From NCBI RefSeq assembly GCF_022524345.1, contig NZ_JAKWJU010000002.1, forward strand, positions 4,192,501-4,256,500: a stretch of DNA of 64,000 nt, written 5' to 3'. Source of the stretch: Streptomyces marispadix (GTDB lineage: Bacteria > Actinomycetota > Actinomycetes > Streptomycetales > Streptomycetaceae). The notes beneath the pieces were generated by a model. That model was not told where the DNA came from and did no database searches. It was given only the letters and a program-made list of their open reading frames with translations. Of this stretch, positions 7,296 to 16,531 are shown in pieces (the first letter of the stretch is position 1; each line of letters starts with the position of its first letter). The translations under genes and the position numbers were made by a program.

Positions 7296-9163
7296 TCAGC
7301 ATTCAGGATTCCGCGGATGTGCGTCGCTGCCGCCGCGCAGTTCGGCGAGCATCGTCTCCCGTAGCCGCAGGGTCGCCACAAGCCGCTGGAAGGACTCCGC
7401 CCAGTAGGCTCCCGCACCCGGTGAGCCTCCTTCGGGCTCGTCGGGCACGGCTGCGAGCGGCTCCAGCCGACCCGCGTCGGCCGGCGGGAGACAGCGCTCG
7501 GCCAGGCCCAGGACCCCGCTGAAGCTCCAGGGGTAACTGCCCGCGTCCCGTGCGATCTCCAGGGCGTCGACCACGGCCCGGCCCAGCGGTTCCGCCCACG
7601 GCGCCGCGCACACGCCCAGCACGCGGAACGCGTCCGACAGCCCGTGTGCCTCGATGAAGCCCGCCGCCCACGCGGCTCGTTCGGCTTCGGGCAGCACTGC
7701 GAGAAGCCTGGCCGCGTCCCCCGCGCTCCCTTCCGGCGGAGCCGTGGGGGCGGCCCGATCAGGGCACGCGCCCACTCCGCGTCGCGCTGGCGTACGGCGG
7801 CACGGCACCAGGCCGTATGGAGGTCCCGCTTCCACTCGTCCGCGACGGGAAGGCCGACGATCTCCTGAGGGCCGCGCCCGCCGAACTGGTCCGGCCACGC
7901 CCACAGCGGTGCCGCCTCCACCAACTGCCCCAGCCACCAGGCACGTTCGCCCTTTCCCGCGGGCGGCTTGGGCACCACCCCGTCGCGCTGCATCTCCGCG
8001 TCGCACTCGTGGGGCGCCTCCACCGATATCCGCGGCGCCGTGGCGAGAGGGTCCGGAGTGACGTATGTACGGGCACGGGCCGCCATGCGGGCGGCGAACG
8101 CCGACCCCGGAAGGCAGGCGAGCAATTCCGCGGCGGTCGCGCGCACGGTACGGGAACGGTCGCCGAGCGCCCGCTCCAGAAACTCCTCGTCATGAACGCC
8201 GATGCTCTCGCGCAGCGAATCGAGGAACATCAGCCGGTCCTCGGCGCGCTCGTTCGCCCATGTGCCGGTCAGCAGGGCCAGCCCGGCGGCAGGGTCCCGG
8301 CGGCGCAGCGAGACGAGCAGGGCGACCCGCTCCGCGAACAGGCCCTCCTGCCACAGCCGTTGGGCCTCGCCCGGCGGCCGGTCCGTACCGGCTGGCGGCT
8401 CGGGCGCGCCATCGCCCGGCGCGGGCTCGGGACCGTCCCCGGCTCCGTACCGGTCCGCGCGTGCGGCGGCCCGGGCGGTCCGTCGGGTCCGGTCGTCCGT
8501 GGGTGGCAGGGCGTGGCGGAGCGCGAACCTCCACTCCGGGTTCAGACCGGCCAGCCACATCCCGCGAGGACCTGCGAACGCCAGCGTCTCGGCGCGCAGA
8601 TCGGTACGGGCGCGGGCCGCGTCCAGCAGGGCAGGAAGCTGTCCCTCGGGGGCGCGGTATCCGTGCTCGTTGGCGGCGGCAAGCCACTGCGGCAGCAGCT
8701 CCGCAAGATCCGGCGCCGTGCCGCGCCGGCCCCCTCCGGGGCCCTGGCCTCCGGGACGGCCCGCGAGCAGCAGCGTCAGCCGGTGCGCCGCCGCGGCGGG
8801 CAGCGGCGGGCGCGGGTCCTCGGGGGCGAGGGCGAGGCGCGGCCCCGCCGGTGCGGGCAGCAGCCCCGCCCGGTGGCGGACGGTCTCCACCGCCGCCGCG
8901 TCCAGCAGGGCCGCTGTGCTGCCACCCGGTGGCGTGCGCCGCTCGCTCCCCAGCAGCGCAGCCGTCACCAACGCGCCCCATGCAGTGGTGAGTTCGTCTG
9001 TGGGGTCCGCCGTGTCGTTGCCGTCCTTGCCGTCCTTGCCGTCCATGGCGCCAAGCACGTCGGGATTGGCCGGTCCATCGGGGGCTTCCGAGACCGCACC
9101 GGGTGCCGCCGTCGGCTGTGGCGGTGGTTGCGGCGGCGGCGTGGCCCTCGTCGTCCGGCTCAT
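7296..9163 (-). pseudogene. DUF5691 family protein, interrupted by a frameshift
   Basis: The start is ATG 9163 behind GGAGG with good spacing. The frame reads a Pro-rich N-terminus followed by an alpha-helical, HEAT-like protein for about 470 codons to ARALIG, then continues as nonsense. From about 7750 down to the stop at 7296 the family-like sequence resumes in another frame (GDAARLLAVLPEAERAAW, then helical text to NPEC). One base is missing, or two extra, in the G/C run near 7744-7760. Joined, the product is about 620 residues. DUF5691 proteins typically sit beside SWIM, MoxR, DUF5682 and VWA genes, as here. Both halves keep normal coding bias, so the lesion is recent or a sequencing error. 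The molecular function is unknown; it probably forms an operon with the SWIM gene 98 bases upstream. Confidence 0.8.
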
Positions 9164-9261
9164 CGCTCTCCCTCCGTACGGACGGCTCGCCGCCACCCGC
9201 CTTGCTGCCGACACTCGGCCCCGTTGCGGGCGAACGCTCGCGCCCGTGTGCTGAGACGGGC

Positions 9262-10905
9262 TCACAACGGCACCGCCTCTCCCTCGCTCCAGACCGTGTA
9301 CGGGGCGAAGCCCCTGTGGCCGCATTCACCGAACACCGTCACCGGGCGGCCTCCGGAGACCGCCGTAAGCCTCCACAGCGACGCGGGGGAGACGCCGGGA
9401 GCCACGGGGAGCGCGAACTCACCGCCCGCGTCCGCCAGTTGCCGTACCCCTGGGCTTCCGTGCGCCGCGCTCTCGCTGCCGCCACCGGTGCCGTCGCCGT
9501 GACCGGCCGCCGTACCGTCCCCGTACTCGCCGAGGACCGGCACCACATCGCTCAGTACCGCGGGCCAGGCGTCCAGCCAGGGGTCGTCGCACAGCGCCTG
9601 CCCATACGAGGCGAGCGAGTCGGTGACCGTGCCCCCTTCCGGCACGTGCCCGGCCGCCGAGGGCGTCCCATGACTCTCGCCGAGCACGGCACGCAGCGGA
9701 CGCGCTCCCGGGTGGTACGCCAGCTCCGCATCGATCGACGAGCCGACAGGCAGGGCCTGTTCGGGCGCGCGGCCCCCTGCCGCATACGACAGCAGCAGCG
9801 CCGGACGCCCCGACGCCAGACCCTTCAGCCAGATGCGCCGGGCCGTAAGCCGCCCTTCCTCGGTGTCGCGCTGTGCGAGCACCAGCCACTCGTCCCTGAC
9901 CTTCTCCGCTCCGCCCGCCAGCAGCTCCGCGGAGTCGACGGTGAGCCCGACCCTCGTCCTCACTGTCGCGGCGAGAGGTTCGGGCAAGCTGTCCAGGGCC
10001 AGCACGCCGCGATTCAGCAGATGGAGAAGCGCGCACTCCGACAGCAGCCTGCCGGGCCAGCCTCCGGCAGCGTCACCCGCAGGCGACGACGTACGTCCGG
10101 AGACGGGGACCGCGCCCAACTCCCGTATGCGCGCGGCCAGTCCGGGGGCCTGGGCGTCGACCATGCGCGAGGCCGTCTCCTCCCACTGTCCATAGCCGCC
10201 CTGCTCCGCACCGGCCAGACCCGCGCGCAGCATGTCCGCCAGCCGTTCCTCAAGCTCCGTGGCCCCCGCCGTGATCCGCCGCATCCGCCGCTGCGCCCGG
10301 CGGCGAGCGGCCTCCGGATCCGCTGGGCCGCGCGCCCCGCCACTCCCGGCGCCGGCGTCTGCCTCGTCTGCCGAGTCTCCGCCCGCGCGCCCCGGCCGGC
10401 CCCCGGCGGCCCTGCGCGCGGCCCGTTCGCGGCGGCCGGCGAGCCATTCGTTCGCCCACTCCGGCGGACGGCCGCCGGACCGTACGACCTGCGGGCTACC
10501 CGTTTCCCGCTCACCGGCCCACAACAGCAGCAGCCCCAGCGCGTGCTTGCACGGGAACTTACGGCTGGGGCAACTGCACTTGTATCCCGGCCCGTGACCC
10601 CTCCCGTAGCCCTTGTCCTGCCCGGGATCTCCCACCGGCCCGTCACCAGGCCCGTCACCAGGCCCTTCACCCGGTCCGTCTCCCGGCACGTCGGCCGAGC
10701 CGCCGTGCGGGCCGCCGAGATCCACCACCGTGCGATACGGCCTGCTCCCGCTGCCCTCGCACAGCCCCCACACCGCGCCGTCGCCGGAGCCCGCCTCCGA
10801 CCACGGGCCGGGCGAGGAGAGCTTGCTCCCCGCCCTGCGTGACGCGTCGTCAGGAGCCAGTGCCAGCACCTCTTCCGCCTTCCAGCGGACCCCCGGTCCA
10901 TCCAT
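9262..10905 (-). CDS. SWIM zinc-finger protein
   Basis: A 547-residue protein with a canonical SWIM motif, Cys110-x-Cys112-x6-Cys119-x-His121 (CSCPSRKFPCKH), which binds zinc and is generally a nucleic-acid or protein contact module. The N-terminal 80 residues (VRWKAEEVLALAPDDASRR) are typical of the Streptomyces family. A Gly/Asp/Pro-rich insert sits just before the finger, and a long helical region of unknown function follows. The ATG at 10905 is chosen because it lies seven bases after the -10 of a RecA-NDp-type promoter and has no Shine-Dalgarno site, implying a leaderless mRNA; a TTG 30 bases upstream is in frame but would lie inside the promoter. Divergent from the MoxR operon and upstream of DUF5691. 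Confidence 0.85.
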   Translation of the reverse strand: MDGPGVRWKAEEVLALAPDDASRRAGSKLSSPGPWSEAGSGDGAVWGLCEGSGSRPYRTVVDLGGPHGGSADVPGDGPGEGPGDGPGDGPVGDPGQDKGYGRGHGPGYKCSCPSRKFPCKHALGLLLLWAGERETGSPQVVRSGGRPPEWANEWLAGRRERAARRAAGGRPGRAGGDSADEADAGAGSGGARGPADPEAARRRAQRRMRRITAGATELEERLADMLRAGLAGAEQGGYGQWEETASRMVDAQAPGLAARIRELGAVPVSGRTSSPAGDAAGGWPGRLLSECALLHLLNRGVLALDSLPEPLAATVRTRVGLTVDSAELLAGGAEKVRDEWLVLAQRDTEEGRLTARRIWLKGLASGRPALLLSYAAGGRAPEQALPVGSSIDAELAYHPGARPLRAVLGESHGTPSAAGHVPEGGTVTDSLASYGQALCDDPWLDAWPAVLSDVVPVLGEYGDGTAAGHGDGTGGGSESAAHGSPGVRQLADAGGEFALPVAPGVSPASLWRLTAVSGGRPVTVFGECGHRGFAPYTVWSEGEAVPL

Positions 10906-10912
10906 GGTCACG

Positions 10913-10935
10913 ACCGTACGAGCCGCCACTGACAA
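10913..10935 (-). promoter_or_regulatory. RecA-NDp/PafBC-type promoter for the SWIM-DUF5691 genes
   Basis: Reading leftward: TTGTCAGTG (10935-10927), eight bases, TACGGT (10918-10913). This is an exact fit to the actinobacterial LexA-independent damage promoter consensus TTGTCRGTG-N8-TAnnnT, which is activated by PafBC in mycobacteria and is also described in Streptomyces. Transcription should begin at or beside the ATG at 10905. Confidence 0.75.
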
Positions 10936-11008
10936 TCGCCTGGCGCTGCACCGTCCACGACTGATCAGCGCAGGTCAGGGCGGGTACAGAGGTGATTGTC
11001 AGTGGCGG
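10923..11008. repeat. 15-bp perfect inverted repeat in the SWIM/MoxR divergent promoter region
   Basis: CCGCCACTGACAATC (10923-10937) is repeated exactly in inverted orientation as GATTGTCAGTGGCGG (10994-11008), 56 bases apart. Each arm holds one outward-facing TTGTCAGTG element, so the arrangement looks like two back-to-back activator/promoter sites serving the two operons rather than a hairpin. Confidence 0.85.
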
Positions 11009-11018
11009 GGTGCACGCT
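10996..11018 (+). promoter_or_regulatory. RecA-NDp/PafBC-like promoter for the MoxR operon
   Basis: TTGTCAGTG (10996-11004), eight bases, then CACGCT (11013-11018). The upstream element is perfect; the -10 differs from TAnnnT at its first base. Transcription would start near 11025, leaving a leader of about 30 bases that contains the GGAGGGGG ribosome-binding site of the MoxR gene. Confidence 0.6.
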
Positions 11019-11055
11019 TGGCGGCACATCGGCAGTCATGTGTGGAGGGGGACCT

Positions 11056-12174
11056 GTGACCATCGATTCCCGCGCCGGAGACACCGCGCAGCACGCGGCG
11101 CTGCGGCCCCATGCCGAGGACGCCTTCGCTGACGAACTGCGGGCGCTGGCCGCGGCGGACGACAGGCCGCGCCCCGAGCGCTGGCGGCTCTCGCCCTGGG
11201 CGGTCTCCATGTATCTGCTCGGCGGAGTGCTGCCCGGCGGAGGCACGGTGATCACGCCCAAGTACGTCGGGCCGCGCAGGCTCGTCGAAGTGGCCGTCAG
11301 CACCCTGGCGACGGACCGCGCGCTGCTGCTCCTCGGCGTCCCCGGCACAGCCAAGACCTGGGTCTCGGAGCATCTCGCGGCGGCCGTGAGCGGCGATTCG
11401 ACGCTGCTCGTGCAAGGCACCGCGGGCACCGCGGAGGAGGCGGTGCGCTACGGCTGGAACTACGCGCAGCTACTCGCCGAGGGGCCCAGCCGCGCCGCCC
11501 TCGTACCGAGCCCCGTGCTGCGAGCGATGGCGGAGGGCAGGACGGCGCGCGTCGAGGAGCTGACGCGCATCCCGGCGGACGTACAGGACAGCCTGATCAC
11601 CGTGCTGTCGGAGAAGACGCTGCCGATACCGGAGCTGGGCGAGGAGGTCCAGGCAGTGCGGGGCTTCAACCTCATCGCGACGGCCAACGACCGTGACCGC
11701 GGGGTGAACGAGCTGTCGAGCGCGCTGCGCCGCCGGTTCAACACGGTGGTGCTCCCGCTGCCCGAGACGGCCGAGGCGGAGGTCGACATCGTCGCCCGCC
11801 GTGTCGATCAGCTCGGCCGCTCCCTCGACCTGCCCGCCGCGGCGGACGGTACGGCGGAGATCCGGCGCGTGGTGACGGTCTTCCGCGAGCTGCGCGACGG
11901 CGTCACCGCCGACGGGCGTACGAGGATCAAGTCGCCCTCGGGGACGCTCTCCACGGCGGAGGCGATCTCGGTCGTCATGGGCGGCATGGCGCTGGCGGCC
12001 CACTTCGGCGACGGCGTGCTGAGGGCCGGTGACGTGGCCGCGGGCGTGCTCGGCGCGGTGGTGCGCGACCCGTCGTCCGACCGTGTGGTGTGGCAGGAGT
12101 ACCTGGAGGCGGTCGTGCGTGAGCGTGACGGCTGGAAGGACTTCTACCGCGCCTGCCGTGAGGTCTCGGCATGA
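11056..12174 (+). CDS. MoxR-family AAA+ ATPase
   Basis: A 372-residue AAA+ ATPase starting at GTG 11056 behind GGAGGGGG. Walker A is GVPGTAKT at 94-101. The Walker B segment reads RVEELTRIP, with Glu in place of the usual Asp of the DE pair. Sensor 1 is LIATANDRD, and an arginine-finger region follows (ALRRRFN). MoxR proteins are hexameric chaperone-like ATPases that work with VWA-domain partners to remodel or mature target complexes. Here the VWA partner is two genes downstream in the same operon, and translation is coupled to DUF5682 by an ATGA overlap. The upstream damage-type promoter suggests induction by DNA damage. The substrate is unknown. Confidence 0.9.
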   Translation: MTIDSRAGDTAQHAALRPHAEDAFADELRALAAADDRPRPERWRLSPWAVSMYLLGGVLPGGGTVITPKYVGPRRLVEVAVSTLATDRALLLLGVPGTAKTWVSEHLAAAVSGDSTLLVQGTAGTAEEAVRYGWNYAQLLAEGPSRAALVPSPVLRAMAEGRTARVEELTRIPADVQDSLITVLSEKTLPIPELGEEVQAVRGFNLIATANDRDRGVNELSSALRRRFNTVVLPLPETAEAEVDIVARRVDQLGRSLDLPAAADGTAEIRRVVTVFRELRDGVTADGRTRIKSPSGTLSTAEAISVVMGGMALAAHFGDGVLRAGDVAAGVLGAVVRDPSSDRVVWQEYLEAVVRERDGWKDFYRACREVSA

Positions 12175-15098
12175 CGGCTGCACAGGCCCGCGCTCCCGGG
12201 CACGGCGCGCCGGGGCGCGATGCTCCCGGGCCTGCCGCCTCCGAACTCCCCGACGCGCCGCTGCTGTTGGGCGTGCGGCATCACGGCCCCGGGTCGGCGC
12301 GTGCCGTGCGGGCGGCGCTGGAGGCCCGTCGCCCGAGGGTGCTGCTCGTAGAGGGGCCGCCGGAGGCGGACGGAGTCGTCGAGTTCGCGGGCGACGAAGC
12401 CATGCGTCCACCGGTGGCTCTCGTCGCACATGCTCCGGACGAGCCGGGCAGGGCCGCGTTCTGGCCGTTCGCGGCGTTCTCGCCTGAGTGGGTCGCGATC
12501 AAGTGGGCGCTGGAGCAGGGAGTCCCGGTCCGCTTCATCGACCTCCCCGCAGCGAACAGCCTTGCCGCACGTACGAGTGAGGACTCACGCACAGGCGAAA
12601 ACGACGAGCGGGACGTCGACGGGCGGGGGGCCGACGGCAGGGGGACTGACGGGCAAGAACCTGACGGACGAGGGGGCGATGGACAAAGCGGCGACAGCGA
12701 ACGAACCCCCGGGGAAGGGGAGTTCGCCACCGCGTACGGCGACGAGCGGAGCGGCCCCCCGGCGGCCGATCCCGTGCGCGTCGATCCGCTCGCGGTCCTC
12801 GCCGAGACGGCCGGTTACGACGACGCCGAACGCTGGTGGGAGGACGTAGTCGAGCATCGTGGAGCGCGCACGGGCTCCGATCCGTACGCGCCGTTCGCCG
12901 TGCTGGGCGAGGCGATGGCCGCCCTGCGGGAGGAGCACGGCGAGGCGGAGGGCACCCGTCCCGCGGGCGACGCCGGTGACCGCCGCGACGAGGTCCGCGA
13001 GGCCCATATGCGTCTGCGACTGCGCGATGCGGTAAGGGAGTTCGGCGCGGGCGGAGTCGCCGTCGTCTGCGGTGCGTGGCACGTTCCGGCACTCACCGCG
13101 AAGACGAGGGTCGCCGACGACAGAAGGCTGCTCAAGGGCCTGCCGAAGGTGAAGGCGGAGATCACCTGGGTGCCGTGGACCCATCGCAGACTCGCACGCC
13201 ACAGCGGCTACGGCGCGGGCATCACCTCTCCCGGCTGGTACGGGCATCTTTTCGAATCGCCCGACCGCGTCGTCGAACGCTGGATGACGAAGGTGGCCCG
13301 GCTGCTGCGCGACGAGGACCGCGGGGTGTCGTCGGCACACGTCATCGAGGCCGTGCGTCTGGCCGACGCGCTGGCCGTCATGCGGGGCAGGCCGCTCGCA
13401 GGGCTGACCGAGACCCTCGACGCGGTGAGGGCCGTGATGTGTGACGGTTCCGACGTGCCGCTCGTCCTGATACGGGACAGGCTCGTCGTCGGCGACGTGC
13501 TGGGCGAGGTCCCGGAGGCGGCGCCCGCGGTCCCGCTCCAGCGGGATCTGGCCAGGCAGCAGCGCACCTTGAGGCTCAAACCCCAGGCCGGTGAACGGGA
13601 GTTGGACCTCGACCTGCGCAAGGAGACGGACTCCGCCCGCAGCCGTCTGCTGCACCGGCTGCGCCTGCTGGGCATCGGCTGGGGGACGCCCGTGCACTCC
13701 CGTACGGGCAGCACCGGCACGTTCCGCGAGAGCTGGCGGCTGATGTGGGAGCCGGAGCTGTCGGTTCGTACGGCCGAGGCGGGGGTGTGGGGCACGACCG
13801 TCGAATCGGCGGCGACGGCCAAGGCCGTGTCGCAGGCCCAAGAGGCCGTCGAGCTGACGGAGGTGACCGCCCTCGCCGAGCAGTGCCTGCTCGCGGAGCT
13901 GCCGGACGCTCTGACGGTCGTCATGCGCGCGCTGGCGGACCGTGCCGCCCTGGACTCCGACGTCGGGCGGCTCGCAAGTGCCCTTCCGGCGCTGGTGCGT
14001 TCGGTGCGGTACGGCAATGTGCGCGGCACCGACTCGGCGGCGCTCACTGAGGTCGCGTACGGGCTGGCGGAGCGGGTCTGCGTGGGGCTGCCACCCGCGT
14101 GCGCGGGCCTCGACGCGGACGGCGCCGCACGGATGCGTGACCATGTCGACGCCGTGCATCGCAGCGTGGCGCTGCTGTCGCAGTCGTCCGGTGCGATGGA
14201 GGCGGACGCAACGGACCCTGACGCGGCGCACGTTGACACGGACGAGGCCGATGCAACGGAGCTTGCTGCGCGGGACGTTGCTGCACTGGGCGTAGCGGCA
14301 CCGGGCGTTGCTGCTGGGGAGGCCGATGGAGCCGAGTCCTCCGGCCGGTCCGCCTCTGCCGAGTCGCCTCGGCCGCACCGGCCACACCGGCCCAGCGGCA
14401 TCCGGTCACGCTGGCGTGCGGTGCTGGGCAGGCTCGCCTCACGCGACCGCATACCGGGCCTGATCCGCGGCCGTTGCGTCCGACTGCTGCTGGACGACGC
14501 CCAGTTGACGCACTCGCAGGCCGCACGGCTGATGGGGCTGGCGCTCTCGCCGGGCACGGCTCCGTCGGAGGCGGCGGCATGGATCGAAGGGTTCCTCGCG
14601 GGCGGCGGCCTGCTGCTCGTACACGATGAACGGCTTCTCGGCCTGGTGGACGGCTGGCTGGCGTCCGTACCGGGGGAGTCCTTCACGGACGTACTGCCGC
14701 TGCTGCGCAGGACGTTCGCGGAGTTCGAGCCGGGAGTGAGGCGCACCGTCGGCGAACTCGTGCGGCGCGGCTGCCACTTCACGGCGGCGGACATGGGAGT
14801 GGGGCAAGGGGGGCCGACGGGCGCTTCCGGCCTGGCACCGGGGTTTCCGCTACGGCGGATACGGCCGGGGCTCGAAGGCTTCGGTCAGGGGCTGGACGTG
14901 GCCCGCGCGGGCGGCGTCATGCCGACGCTGCGGCTGCTGCTCGGGCAGCCGCAGCCCGAAGGCGGCGGGCCTGCGGAGGCCAGATCGGCACAAGTACCGG
15001 CCGGAGCAGGGGACTTCGAGACGGCGACGACCCACGCGACCCACGCCGGGCGTGAGCAAGCCGGACCGGAGACGCACGATAAGGAGGCGGCCGTATGA
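12171..15098 (+). CDS. DUF5682 family protein (possible TIKI/TraB/EreA-like fold)
   Basis: A 975-residue protein coupled to both neighbours by ATGA overlaps. The N-terminal third has a conserved VRHHGPGSA motif near 35-43, then LLVEGPPEADG, RFIDLPAAN, and near 300 a second histidine motif, CGAWHVPAL. This pattern of an early Gly-His motif, a Glu, and a late GAxH motif resembles TIKI/TraB/EreA-type hydrolase folds, though that link is my inference. Two stretches are low complexity: an Asp/Gly-rich insert near 140-180 and an Ala/Asp/Glu-rich repeat near 680-740. The C-terminal part is helical. The gene lies between MoxR and VWA genes, so it is probably an effector, substrate or adaptor of that pair. 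No signal peptide or membrane helix is seen, so it acts in the cytoplasm. Confidence 0.85.
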   Translation: MTAAQARAPGHGAPGRDAPGPAASELPDAPLLLGVRHHGPGSARAVRAALEARRPRVLLVEGPPEADGVVEFAGDEAMRPPVALVAHAPDEPGRAAFWPFAAFSPEWVAIKWALEQGVPVRFIDLPAANSLAARTSEDSRTGENDERDVDGRGADGRGTDGQEPDGRGGDGQSGDSERTPGEGEFATAYGDERSGPPAADPVRVDPLAVLAETAGYDDAERWWEDVVEHRGARTGSDPYAPFAVLGEAMAALREEHGEAEGTRPAGDAGDRRDEVREAHMRLRLRDAVREFGAGGVAVVCGAWHVPALTAKTRVADDRRLLKGLPKVKAEITWVPWTHRRLARHSGYGAGITSPGWYGHLFESPDRVVERWMTKVARLLRDEDRGVSSAHVIEAVRLADALAVMRGRPLAGLTETLDAVRAVMCDGSDVPLVLIRDRLVVGDVLGEVPEAAPAVPLQRDLARQQRTLRLKPQAGERELDLDLRKETDSARSRLLHRLRLLGIGWGTPVHSRTGSTGTFRESWRLMWEPELSVRTAEAGVWGTTVESAATAKAVSQAQEAVELTEVTALAEQCLLAELPDALTVVMRALADRAALDSDVGRLASALPALVRSVRYGNVRGTDSAALTEVAYGLAERVCVGLPPACAGLDADGAARMRDHVDAVHRSVALLSQSSGAMEADATDPDAAHVDTDEADATELAARDVAALGVAAPGVAAGEADGAESSGRSASAESPRPHRPHRPSGIRSRWRAVLGRLASRDRIPGLIRGRCVRLLLDDAQLTHSQAARLMGLALSPGTAPSEAAAWIEGFLAGGGLLLVHDERLLGLVDGWLASVPGESFTDVLPLLRRTFAEFEPGVRRTVGELVRRGCHFTAADMGVGQGGPTGASGLAPGFPLRRIRPGLEGFGQGLDVARAGGVMPTLRLLLGQPQPEGGGPAEARSAQVPAGAGDFETATTHATHAGREQAGPETHDKEAAV

Positions 15099-16531
15099 CC
15101 TGGCCCAACGGCACACCCGGAACGCCGAACGGCACGCCCGGAACCGGAATCACGGGTGCACCCGGGACCCCCGGCGGGCCCGGCGCGATTTCGGCGATAA
15201 GGCCGCAGACGCCCTCACAGCCCCGGAACGCCCAGGACGGCCCCGTCGACATCACGAGTGCCGACATCTCGCCTGTCGACTTCACGCGTGCCGACATCAC
15301 GCGTCCTGAGTCCAGTCCCGCCGAGCCGACCCCCGCCGGGGAGCGGCTGCGTCGTTGGCGTCTGGTGCTCGGAGGGGCGGACGGTTCGGACGGCACCGGC
15401 TGCCGACTGGGCGGCACGGACGCCGCGATGGACCGTACGCTCCAGGCGCTCTACGGCGGCGGCCCGTCGCACGGCCCCGGCGCGGGCTCCGGCTCCGGCT
15501 CCGGATCAGGCTCCGGCAGGGGGCGGGCCGGCCGTGGCGAGCGTGCCGGTGGCCTGGGCGCCTCCGCGCCCCAAGTGGCGCGCTGGCTGGGCGACATCAG
15601 GACGTACTTCCCGAGTTCCGTGGTGCAGGTGATGCAGCGCGACGCCATCGAGCGACTCGACCTCTCCGCCCTGCTGCTGGAACCGGAGATGCTGGACGCC
15701 GTGGAGCCGGACGTGCATCTCGTGGGCACGCTGCTCTCGTTGAAGGCCGCCATGCCCGAGACCAGCAAGGAGACGGCCCGCATGGTGGTCCGCAAGGTCG
15801 TCGCGGAGCTGGAGAAGCGGCTCGCGGCCCGCACCCGCTCCGCCCTCACCGGCGCGCTCGACCGCTCCGCGAGGGTGCACCGGCCCCGGCACCGCGACAT
15901 CGACTGGGACCGTACGATCCGGGCAAACCTCAAGAACTATCTGCCCGAGCACGACACCGTCGTCCCCGAACGCCTCATAGGCCATGGGCGAGCGGCGCGT
16001 GGAGTGCGCAAGGACGTCATACTCTGCATCGACCAGTCGGGATCGATGGCGCCGTCCGTGGTGCACGCCTCGGTCTTCGGCGCCGTGCTCGCCTCGATGC
16101 GTTCGCTGAACACGCGGCTCGTCGTCTTCGACACCAGCGTCGTCGACCTCACCGAGGAACTCGACGATCCGGTGGATGTGCTCTTCGGCACCAGCCTCGG
16201 CGGCGGCACGGACATCAACAGGGCGCTGGCGTACTGCCAGTCGCAGATAAGCCGCCCCTCGGAGACGATCGTGGTCCTCATCAGCGACCTCTACGAGGGC
16301 GGCATACGTGACGAGATGCTCAAGCGCGTGGCTCAAATGAAGGCGGCGGGCGTGCAGTTCGTGGCCCTGCTCGCGCTGTCGGACGAGGGGGCGCCCGCGT
16401 ACGACCGTAGTCACGCCAGTGCGCTCGCGGCCCTGGGCGCCCCCGCGTTCGCCTGTACGCCAGACCACTTTCCCGAAGTGATGGCGGCGGCCATAGAAAA
16501 GCGACCGCTTCCCGTTCCGGACCAGGGGTGA
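15095..16531 (+). CDS. VWA-domain protein, partner of the MoxR ATPase
   Basis: A 478-residue protein with an intact metal-ion-dependent adhesion site: DxSxS as DQSGSM near 312, the Thr loop GGGTDI near 368, and the Asp loop SDLYEGG near 397. The VWA domain occupies about 305-470. The first 40 residues are a Gly/Pro/Thr collagen-like repeat, and a Gly/Ser linker (about 125-145) separates a helical middle domain. It overlaps DUF5682 by ATGA and ends the operon, followed by a hairpin. VWA proteins of this type bridge MoxR ATPases to their targets through the bound metal ion. No signal peptide is present, so it should act in the cytoplasm. Confidence 0.9.
   Translation: MTWPNGTPGTPNGTPGTGITGAPGTPGGPGAISAIRPQTPSQPRNAQDGPVDITSADISPVDFTRADITRPESSPAEPTPAGERLRRWRLVLGGADGSDGTGCRLGGTDAAMDRTLQALYGGGPSHGPGAGSGSGSGSGSGRGRAGRGERAGGLGASAPQVARWLGDIRTYFPSSVVQVMQRDAIERLDLSALLLEPEMLDAVEPDVHLVGTLLSLKAAMPETSKETARMVVRKVVAELEKRLAARTRSALTGALDRSARVHRPRHRDIDWDRTIRANLKNYLPEHDTVVPERLIGHGRAARGVRKDVILCIDQSGSMAPSVVHASVFGAVLASMRSLNTRLVVFDTSVVDLTEELDDPVDVLFGTSLGGGTDINRALAYCQSQISRPSETIVVLISDLYEGGIRDEMLKRVAQMKAAGVQFVALLALSDEGAPAYDRSHASALAALGAPAFACTPDHFPEVMAAAIEKRPLPVPDQG

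Follow-up and report, generated by a model that had tools for sequence, protein, structure and literature searches.

Pairs of a MoxR-type AAA+ ATPase and a VWA protein, such as NorQ-NorD, CoxD-CoxE and RavA-ViaA, are bacterial maturation systems. Published work ascribes to them chaperone-like maturation roles, in which client complexes are remodelled or matured, and counts YehL among seven MoxR subfamilies (PMC3893208). In Escherichia coli K-12 the genes yehL-yehM-yehP-yehQ (NC_000913 2204596-2210944) encode MoxR, DUF5682, VWA and SWIM proteins in one block. Here we analyze a related gene block of Streptomyces marispadix that lies at ~7.3-16.5 kb of a 64,000-nucleotide stretch (the window; contig NZ_JAKWJU010000002.1, positions 4,192,501 to 4,256,500) of the 6.7 Mb host genome. 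This block carries DUF5691 and SWIM genes on its minus arm and MoxR, DUF5682 and VWA genes on its plus arm. A second described system, the RecA-NDp/PafBC regulon of mycobacteria, is relevant to its control. The published consensus for these LexA-independent promoters is tTGTCRgtg-8nt-TannnT (PMC5656591), with which variants of the motif in M. tuberculosis are consistent (PMC8151990). According to a 2022 report, an initial search suggested that S. venezuelae does not conserve the PafBC motif of M. smegmatis; that report left open the existence of a PafBC-type LexA-independent response in Streptomyces (PMC9380542).

The window block resembles the maturation pairs in joining an AAA+ MoxR protein to a VWA partner and differs from them in adding DUF5682, SWIM and DUF5691 partners. 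The closest solved relatives of the MoxR protein by sequence are midasin and NorQ (9qh4), and the VWA protein belongs to the VWA_CoxE family; NCBIfam scores stayed below cut-off for ViaA (21.1 bits versus 500) and GvpN (29.8 versus 266.8). The block has the composition of a YehL-type system, with DUF5682 between a Walker A-containing MoxR protein and a VWA protein, and with DUF5682 and SWIM in the same block. Profiles seeded with the four E. coli yeh genes find all four of these genes, whose order is MoxR-DUF5682-VWA-SWIM, and no DUF5691 match was obtained in the yeh stretch. The E. coli DUF5682 protein is 26% identical, and no CTGN10CAG occurs in the ~410 bases before yehL. Because its SWIM gene is divergent and DUF5691 is present, the window block represents a sister type rather than the E. 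coli type. A literature search returned no paper on the function of the YehL partner set, DUF5682 or DUF5691, with papers on yeh genes judged by title or listing. This agrees with a preliminary description of the stretch, which considered that no function was established; the set does, however, have known relatives in E. coli yehL-M-P-Q and the YehL subfamily (PMC3893208).

We propose, with a probability of roughly 0.6, that the block is a core Streptomyces YehL-type MoxR cassette doubly controlled by the LexA-independent RecA-NDp/PafBC-type response, and that it produces a damage-induced AAA+ machine for remodelling or processing. Confidence is far above this figure for the cassette and its promoters and far below it for hydrolysis.

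Damage-type promoters on both arms

The two divergent damage-type promoters provide the strongest result. The -26 element tTGTCRgtg and the 8-nt spacer are matched on both arms, identical to the mycobacterial motif and spacer (PMC5656591, PMC8151990), and the SWIM arm matches the full consensus including the -10 TannnT (TACGGT). With the strict TANNNT form only this minus-strand site is found in the window, versus 0 in 100 shuffles. The site ends ~8 nt ahead of ATG 10905, a distance that points to a leaderless message for the SWIM arm. In every one of 15 Streptomyces loci (L032-L046, drawn from the DUF5682 matches with the highest scores), both sites are exact and keep the 8-nt spacer. Strict divergent pairs are present in 85 of 147 order-level genomes at a gap of 25-55 and in 13 at a gap of 56-86 (96 together); MoxR and SWIM are both found at all 30 of the strict pairs examined, and five listed pairs lie elsewhere. 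Among 38 genomes of the genus without a strict pair, 20 were fetched; every one has the MoxR-side site, which is exact in 14 and carries one mismatch in 6. In 14 of the 20 the stretch also contains an opposite site of the TANNNT type, lying more than 300 bases off in 4 of these 14. The suggestion of the preliminary description that the promoters are of DNA-damage type thus holds for both arms, with no site in a backwards control and with conservation in Streptomyces relatives.

The GCAGGTCAG element upstream of the MoxR promoter is exact in 18 of 30 relatives and present with at most one mismatch in 24 of 30, and a second regulator may act there. Upstream of other motif sites in the same genome (within 60 bases), an exact copy occurs only once, before a SAV_6107-like HEPN gene (L078).

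With a looser search form, NANNNT at -10, the genome contains 21 sites versus 0 in the backwards control, two of them being the locus pair. Seven of the other 19 precede repair-type genes by Pfam or NCBIfam: recA, uvrB, polA, a bifunctional exonuclease/polymerase, an AlkZ-like glycosylase, an Lhr-type helicase and a RecD2-like protein. As in the mycobacterial regulon, recA and repair genes carry the motif, and within the predicted gene set the block stands out by having it on both arms. A PafC gene (HTH_PafC) is present in the genome, beside a second WYL/WCX gene that we take as PafB. Across the genus, 2499 sites were found in 61 of 61 Streptomyces genomes (6-77 each, median 36) versus 7 control sites. 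This survey bears on the question left open by the 2022 report (PMC9380542) and points to a genus-level answer: a PafBC-type LexA-independent damage response probably exists in Streptomyces, with recA, uvrB and polA among its predicted targets.

The same kind of predicted promoter stands before a second, different YehL-type cassette in Streptomyces, the four-gene sister operons headed by a DUF4132 gene. This head gene was found in all eight sister operons scanned, one of them from Goodfellowiella, with a WGR domain in three of the eight. A full-consensus site lies just before the head gene in seven of eight Streptomyces loci (L067, L068, L179, L181, L183, L184 and L188), and the eighth, L223, has a one-mismatch site; the Goodfellowiella locus (L156) has a site too, and a Kitasatospora locus (L185) has none. 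Among 80 named loci there were 9 consensus-type sites versus 0 in the backwards control, three of the 9 in L163, L165 and L227. Conserved damage-type promoters on two YehL-type cassettes offer a testable trigger for the YehL machine. As side observations, the E. coli DUF4132 protein is annotated as YehI, and a large gene stands upstream in most four-gene loci; 37 loci (L127 and 36 others) fall into one single-linkage cluster of such genes, whose example resembles a shadow frame.

Conservation and linkage of the gene block

The gene block is genuine; it is conserved and occurs widely. The same divergent five-gene layout is present in 15 of 15 Streptomyces loci, and a B12-binding gene flanks it in all 15 and in three of four sister-family loci. 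DUF5682 occurs in 144 of 147 genomes of the order-level sample, 134 of the 144 being of the same genus, and in 25 of 296 genomes of the phylum sample, 12 of the 25 being of the same genus; among the 120 closest DUF5682 proteins listed, those with a named source come from Streptomyces. Because it is near-universal in the genus sample and retains the same flanking gene, we consider the block a core element fixed in place and not an island, and this conservation across relatives makes it more than a chance arrangement.

In the sister family (L047-L050), L052, L053 and L062 the genes run in a single direction, in the order SWIM-DUF5691-MoxR-DUF5682-VWA, with the SWIM and DUF5691 matches sharing one long frame in L053 and L062. 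In seven loci of the phylum sample (L055-L061), SWIM, MoxR, DUF5682 and VWA follow one another; DUF5691 matches weakly in two of the seven and has no match in the other five. L054 of this sample is a short contig. Despite the different layout, L047 and L048 each have one exact promoter site and one TTGTCGGTG site, one before SWIM and the other at the DUF5691 start of the co-directional block, and L049 and L050 have none. The double control may therefore be older than the layout change.

A multi-phylum scan of named genomes covered the best 80 of 580 loci, from many phyla. Within these 80, MoxR and VWA adjoin DUF5682 in 71. All five genes are together in 20, every one co-directional, and 28 have MoxR, VWA and SWIM without DUF5691. 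A further 23 have MoxR and VWA without a SWIM profile match, and in 20 of these a CxC...CxH motif follows DUF5682. Several of the remaining nine are short or end near the match, which does not explain L186, L207 and L219. The Streptomyces loci and the multi-phylum scan bear out the tight gene linkage claimed in the preliminary description. Additional MoxR-VWA relatives (L063-L066 and L069-L071) were also observed, and in several of them a single long frame carries both the DUF5682 and the VWA match; L070 has an exact promoter site close to where the long frame ahead of MoxR begins, L065 has two promoter sites several kb away, and L069 has one TTGTCGGTG site.

Proposed function and alternatives

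We infer a complex, its substrate, its catalysis and its induction from these genes and their predicted control. Single-stranded DNA would activate PafBC, RNA polymerase would then fire the two divergent promoters, and the five proteins would be produced together. MoxR would assemble as an AAA+ ring, with the VWA protein docking through its metal-ion-dependent adhesion site (MIDAS) to connect the ring to the substrate. SWIM and the HEAT-like DUF5691 protein may assist in recognizing or holding this substrate, which would be a protein and may be bound to damaged DNA. DUF5682 would either process the substrate by hydrolysis through a TIKI/TraB-like domain or be the remodelled client itself. The genes that share this promoter type with the two kinds of cassette suggest that the machine would be needed during DNA damage. 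A broader and more tentative proposal is that YehL-type cassettes are an unrecognized arm of the LexA-independent damage response. In such an arm, a MoxR-VWA motor would feed proteins, perhaps DNA-trapped ones, to DUF5682 as a TIKI-like hydrolase, with SWIM and HEAT-like proteins as adaptors. Its five-gene and DUF4132-headed versions would share the damage promoter, and E. coli yehL-M-P-Q would be a distant sister.

In MoxR the Walker A, EE Walker B and RRF columns are at least 95% conserved (118 rows), as are the MIDAS-like DxSGSM, GGGT and later Asp columns of the VWA protein (117 rows), and the SWIM CxCx6CxH is invariant in 19 aligned sequences. The AlphaFold2 model of an intact DUF5691 relative is almost wholly helical and suggests a HEAT/ARM-like fold, in line with the HEAT-like character predicted for it in the preliminary description. 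The N-terminal domain of DUF5682 contains the motif set GVRHH 34-38, E61, D124, RE 276-277 and GAWH 301-304, of which G34, R36, H37, H38, E61, D124, R276, E277, G301 and H304 are invariant in 47 sequences. It therefore has the two G-x-x-H motifs and conserved acidic residues of the TIKI/TraB/PrgY superfamily, with Glu and Arg between the motifs in the same order, and differs from that superfamily in its weak sequence similarity and in the long C-terminal helical-repeat part. In the AlphaFold2 model (mean predicted local distance difference test score, pLDDT, 79.6) the invariant His/Glu/Asp set is located at strand ends, as in an active site. Comparison with TraB by hhalign gave P 0.003-0.004 and a score above all 200 column shuffles, with a probability of only 8-11%. 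These observations are suggestive of a TIKI/TraB-like N-terminal domain.

Several observations weigh against the proposed reading. The -10 of the MoxR arm is CACGCT, with C for T at the first base, and so departs from TannnT; a CANNNT -10 is likewise found on the MoxR side of relatives. Twelve of the other 19 sites in the genome precede genes with non-repair names or without a family, including PhoH, GNAT, glyoxalase, Uma2, GalT, mycothiol-type, HEPN, BNR and TPR genes, one gene without a family (L079) and one left unscanned (L087). No RecA-NDp motif is present at the start of five-gene operons outside the Streptomycetales sample. In 27 upstream regions of five-gene and related operons, including those of L048 and L050, no convincing damage box was found other than the L048 site; L209 has an exact CTGTN8ACAG at -346 and six others have a looser CTGN10CAG, none convincingly close. 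Damage control may thus be a lineage trait, and the presence of a motif is not equivalent to induction. The TIKI membership of DUF5682 is weak at the hhalign probability given above, profile comparison gave no match between DUF5682 and the Ere family, and fold searches were filled by matches to the helical part. Finally, the DUF5691 gene of the window strain is split across two frames near 7740-7760, next to a short C-run. In all 15 Streptomyces loci read it is a single uninterrupted frame. The split in the window strain is either a strain-specific break or a sequencing error, and unless it is the latter the cassette may be impaired in this strain.

The main rival is a chaperone for metal-centre or enzyme maturation, as in NorQ-NorD and CoxD-CoxE, in which MoxR-VWA would activate a client needed more during damage or oxidative stress and DUF5682 would be a client or co-factor and not a hydrolase. 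The CoxE family membership of the VWA protein, the resemblance of MoxR to NorQ (9qh4) and the chaperone-like maturation roles described for MoxR proteins (PMC3893208) argue for this explanation, which we nevertheless regard as unlikely. The invariant DUF5682 residues have the active-site-like placement described above, and the 94 flank proteins (of 102 listed) from 19 of 20 five-gene loci in other bacteria have no Pfam family common to more than three of them.

We consider it improbable that the products form a complex at sites of DNA damage, with SWIM and the HEAT-like protein binding nucleoprotein, MoxR-VWA stripping or remodelling protein-DNA complexes that have stalled, and no hydrolase activity involved. 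Repair genes share the motif set, DUF5691 is predicted to be HEAT/ARM-like, the MoxR AAA+ domain is midasin-like and some sister-operon head proteins have a WGR domain, all of which would suit such a complex; SWIM domains, on the other hand, also bind proteins.

The preliminary description had also viewed the block as a candidate defence system and proposed a survey of DUF5682 neighbourhoods for linkage and defence context. The linkage part was confirmed in the 20 loci noted above; as defence context, five PADLOC families match 1-2 of the 94 flank proteins each (E-value 1e-10). PADLOC searches at E 0.01 gave no match for SWIM, DUF5682, VWA or the N-terminal DUF5691 piece (the C-terminal piece was left out), and the sole match among the proteins scanned was IetA for MoxR at E 0.0095. 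The vWA-MoxR ternary conflict systems (Kaur et al. 2020, PMC7159879) likewise have a MoxR and VWA core, and no beta-propeller or VMAP component was recognized in the window cassette. An anti-phage or conflict system akin to these and switched on by phage-caused damage, for which one could cite the proposed conflict role of MoxR and VWA architectures (PMC7159879), CRISPR-linked MoxR/VWA cases (PMC10910872), a weak bpMoxR similarity (21.3 bits, under the cut-off of 27) and the flank matches, is the least probable explanation, and the defence claim is not supported: none of the proteins scanned gave a confident PADLOC match, no Pfam family is common to more than three of the flank proteins, the block is near-universal in the genus sample and fixed in place, DUF5682 has a single partial match among 50,697 phage records, and the four-gene sister, by its E. 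coli-type DUF5682, occurs on 31 of 72,556 plasmid records. The plasmid records are from Escherichia, Rhizobium, Agrobacterium and others, and several are as large as a chromosome.

Coordinates and gene structure

Table 1. Features of the YehL-type block and its promoter region in the window
Feature	Position	Strand	Basis
DUF5691 gene (PF18944), predicted HEAT/ARM-like helical repeat	~7296..9265	-	Pfam on two pieces read apart
SWIM zinc-finger protein, 547 aa, CxCx6CxH	9262..10905	-	PF04434
RecA-NDp/PafBC-type promoter, SWIM-DUF5691 arm: TTGTCAGTG-8nt-TACGGT	10935-10913	-	motif match; conserved in relatives
GCAGGTCAG element, upstream of MoxR promoter	10970..10978	+	comparison with 30 relatives
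RecA-NDp/PafBC-type promoter, MoxR arm: TTGTCAGTG-8nt-CACGCT	10996-11018	+	motif match; conserved in relatives
MoxR-type AAA+ ATPase (AAA_5), YehL-like	11056..12174	+	PF07728
DUF5682: N-terminal alpha/beta domain and C-terminal helical-repeat part	12171..15098	+	PF18934, 971.7 bits
VWA protein (VWA_CoxE), MIDAS-like DxSGSM, GGGT, later Asp	15095..16531	+	PF05762

Five linked genes do exist, as the preliminary description stated, although the span 9262-16531 given for them holds only four, with DUF5691 lying to the left of 9262. The two back-to-back arms and the coupling of the right-arm genes were correctly recognized; ATGA overlaps are present at 12171 and 15095. The listed open reading frame for SWIM starts at 10935, within the promoter, and the gene probably starts at ATG 10905, just past its own promoter. 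For MoxR we infer a start at GTG 11056, after a GGAGG-like site. Elsewhere in the genome, the PhoH protein encoded behind one of the motif sites has a weak Hint match and may contain an intein.

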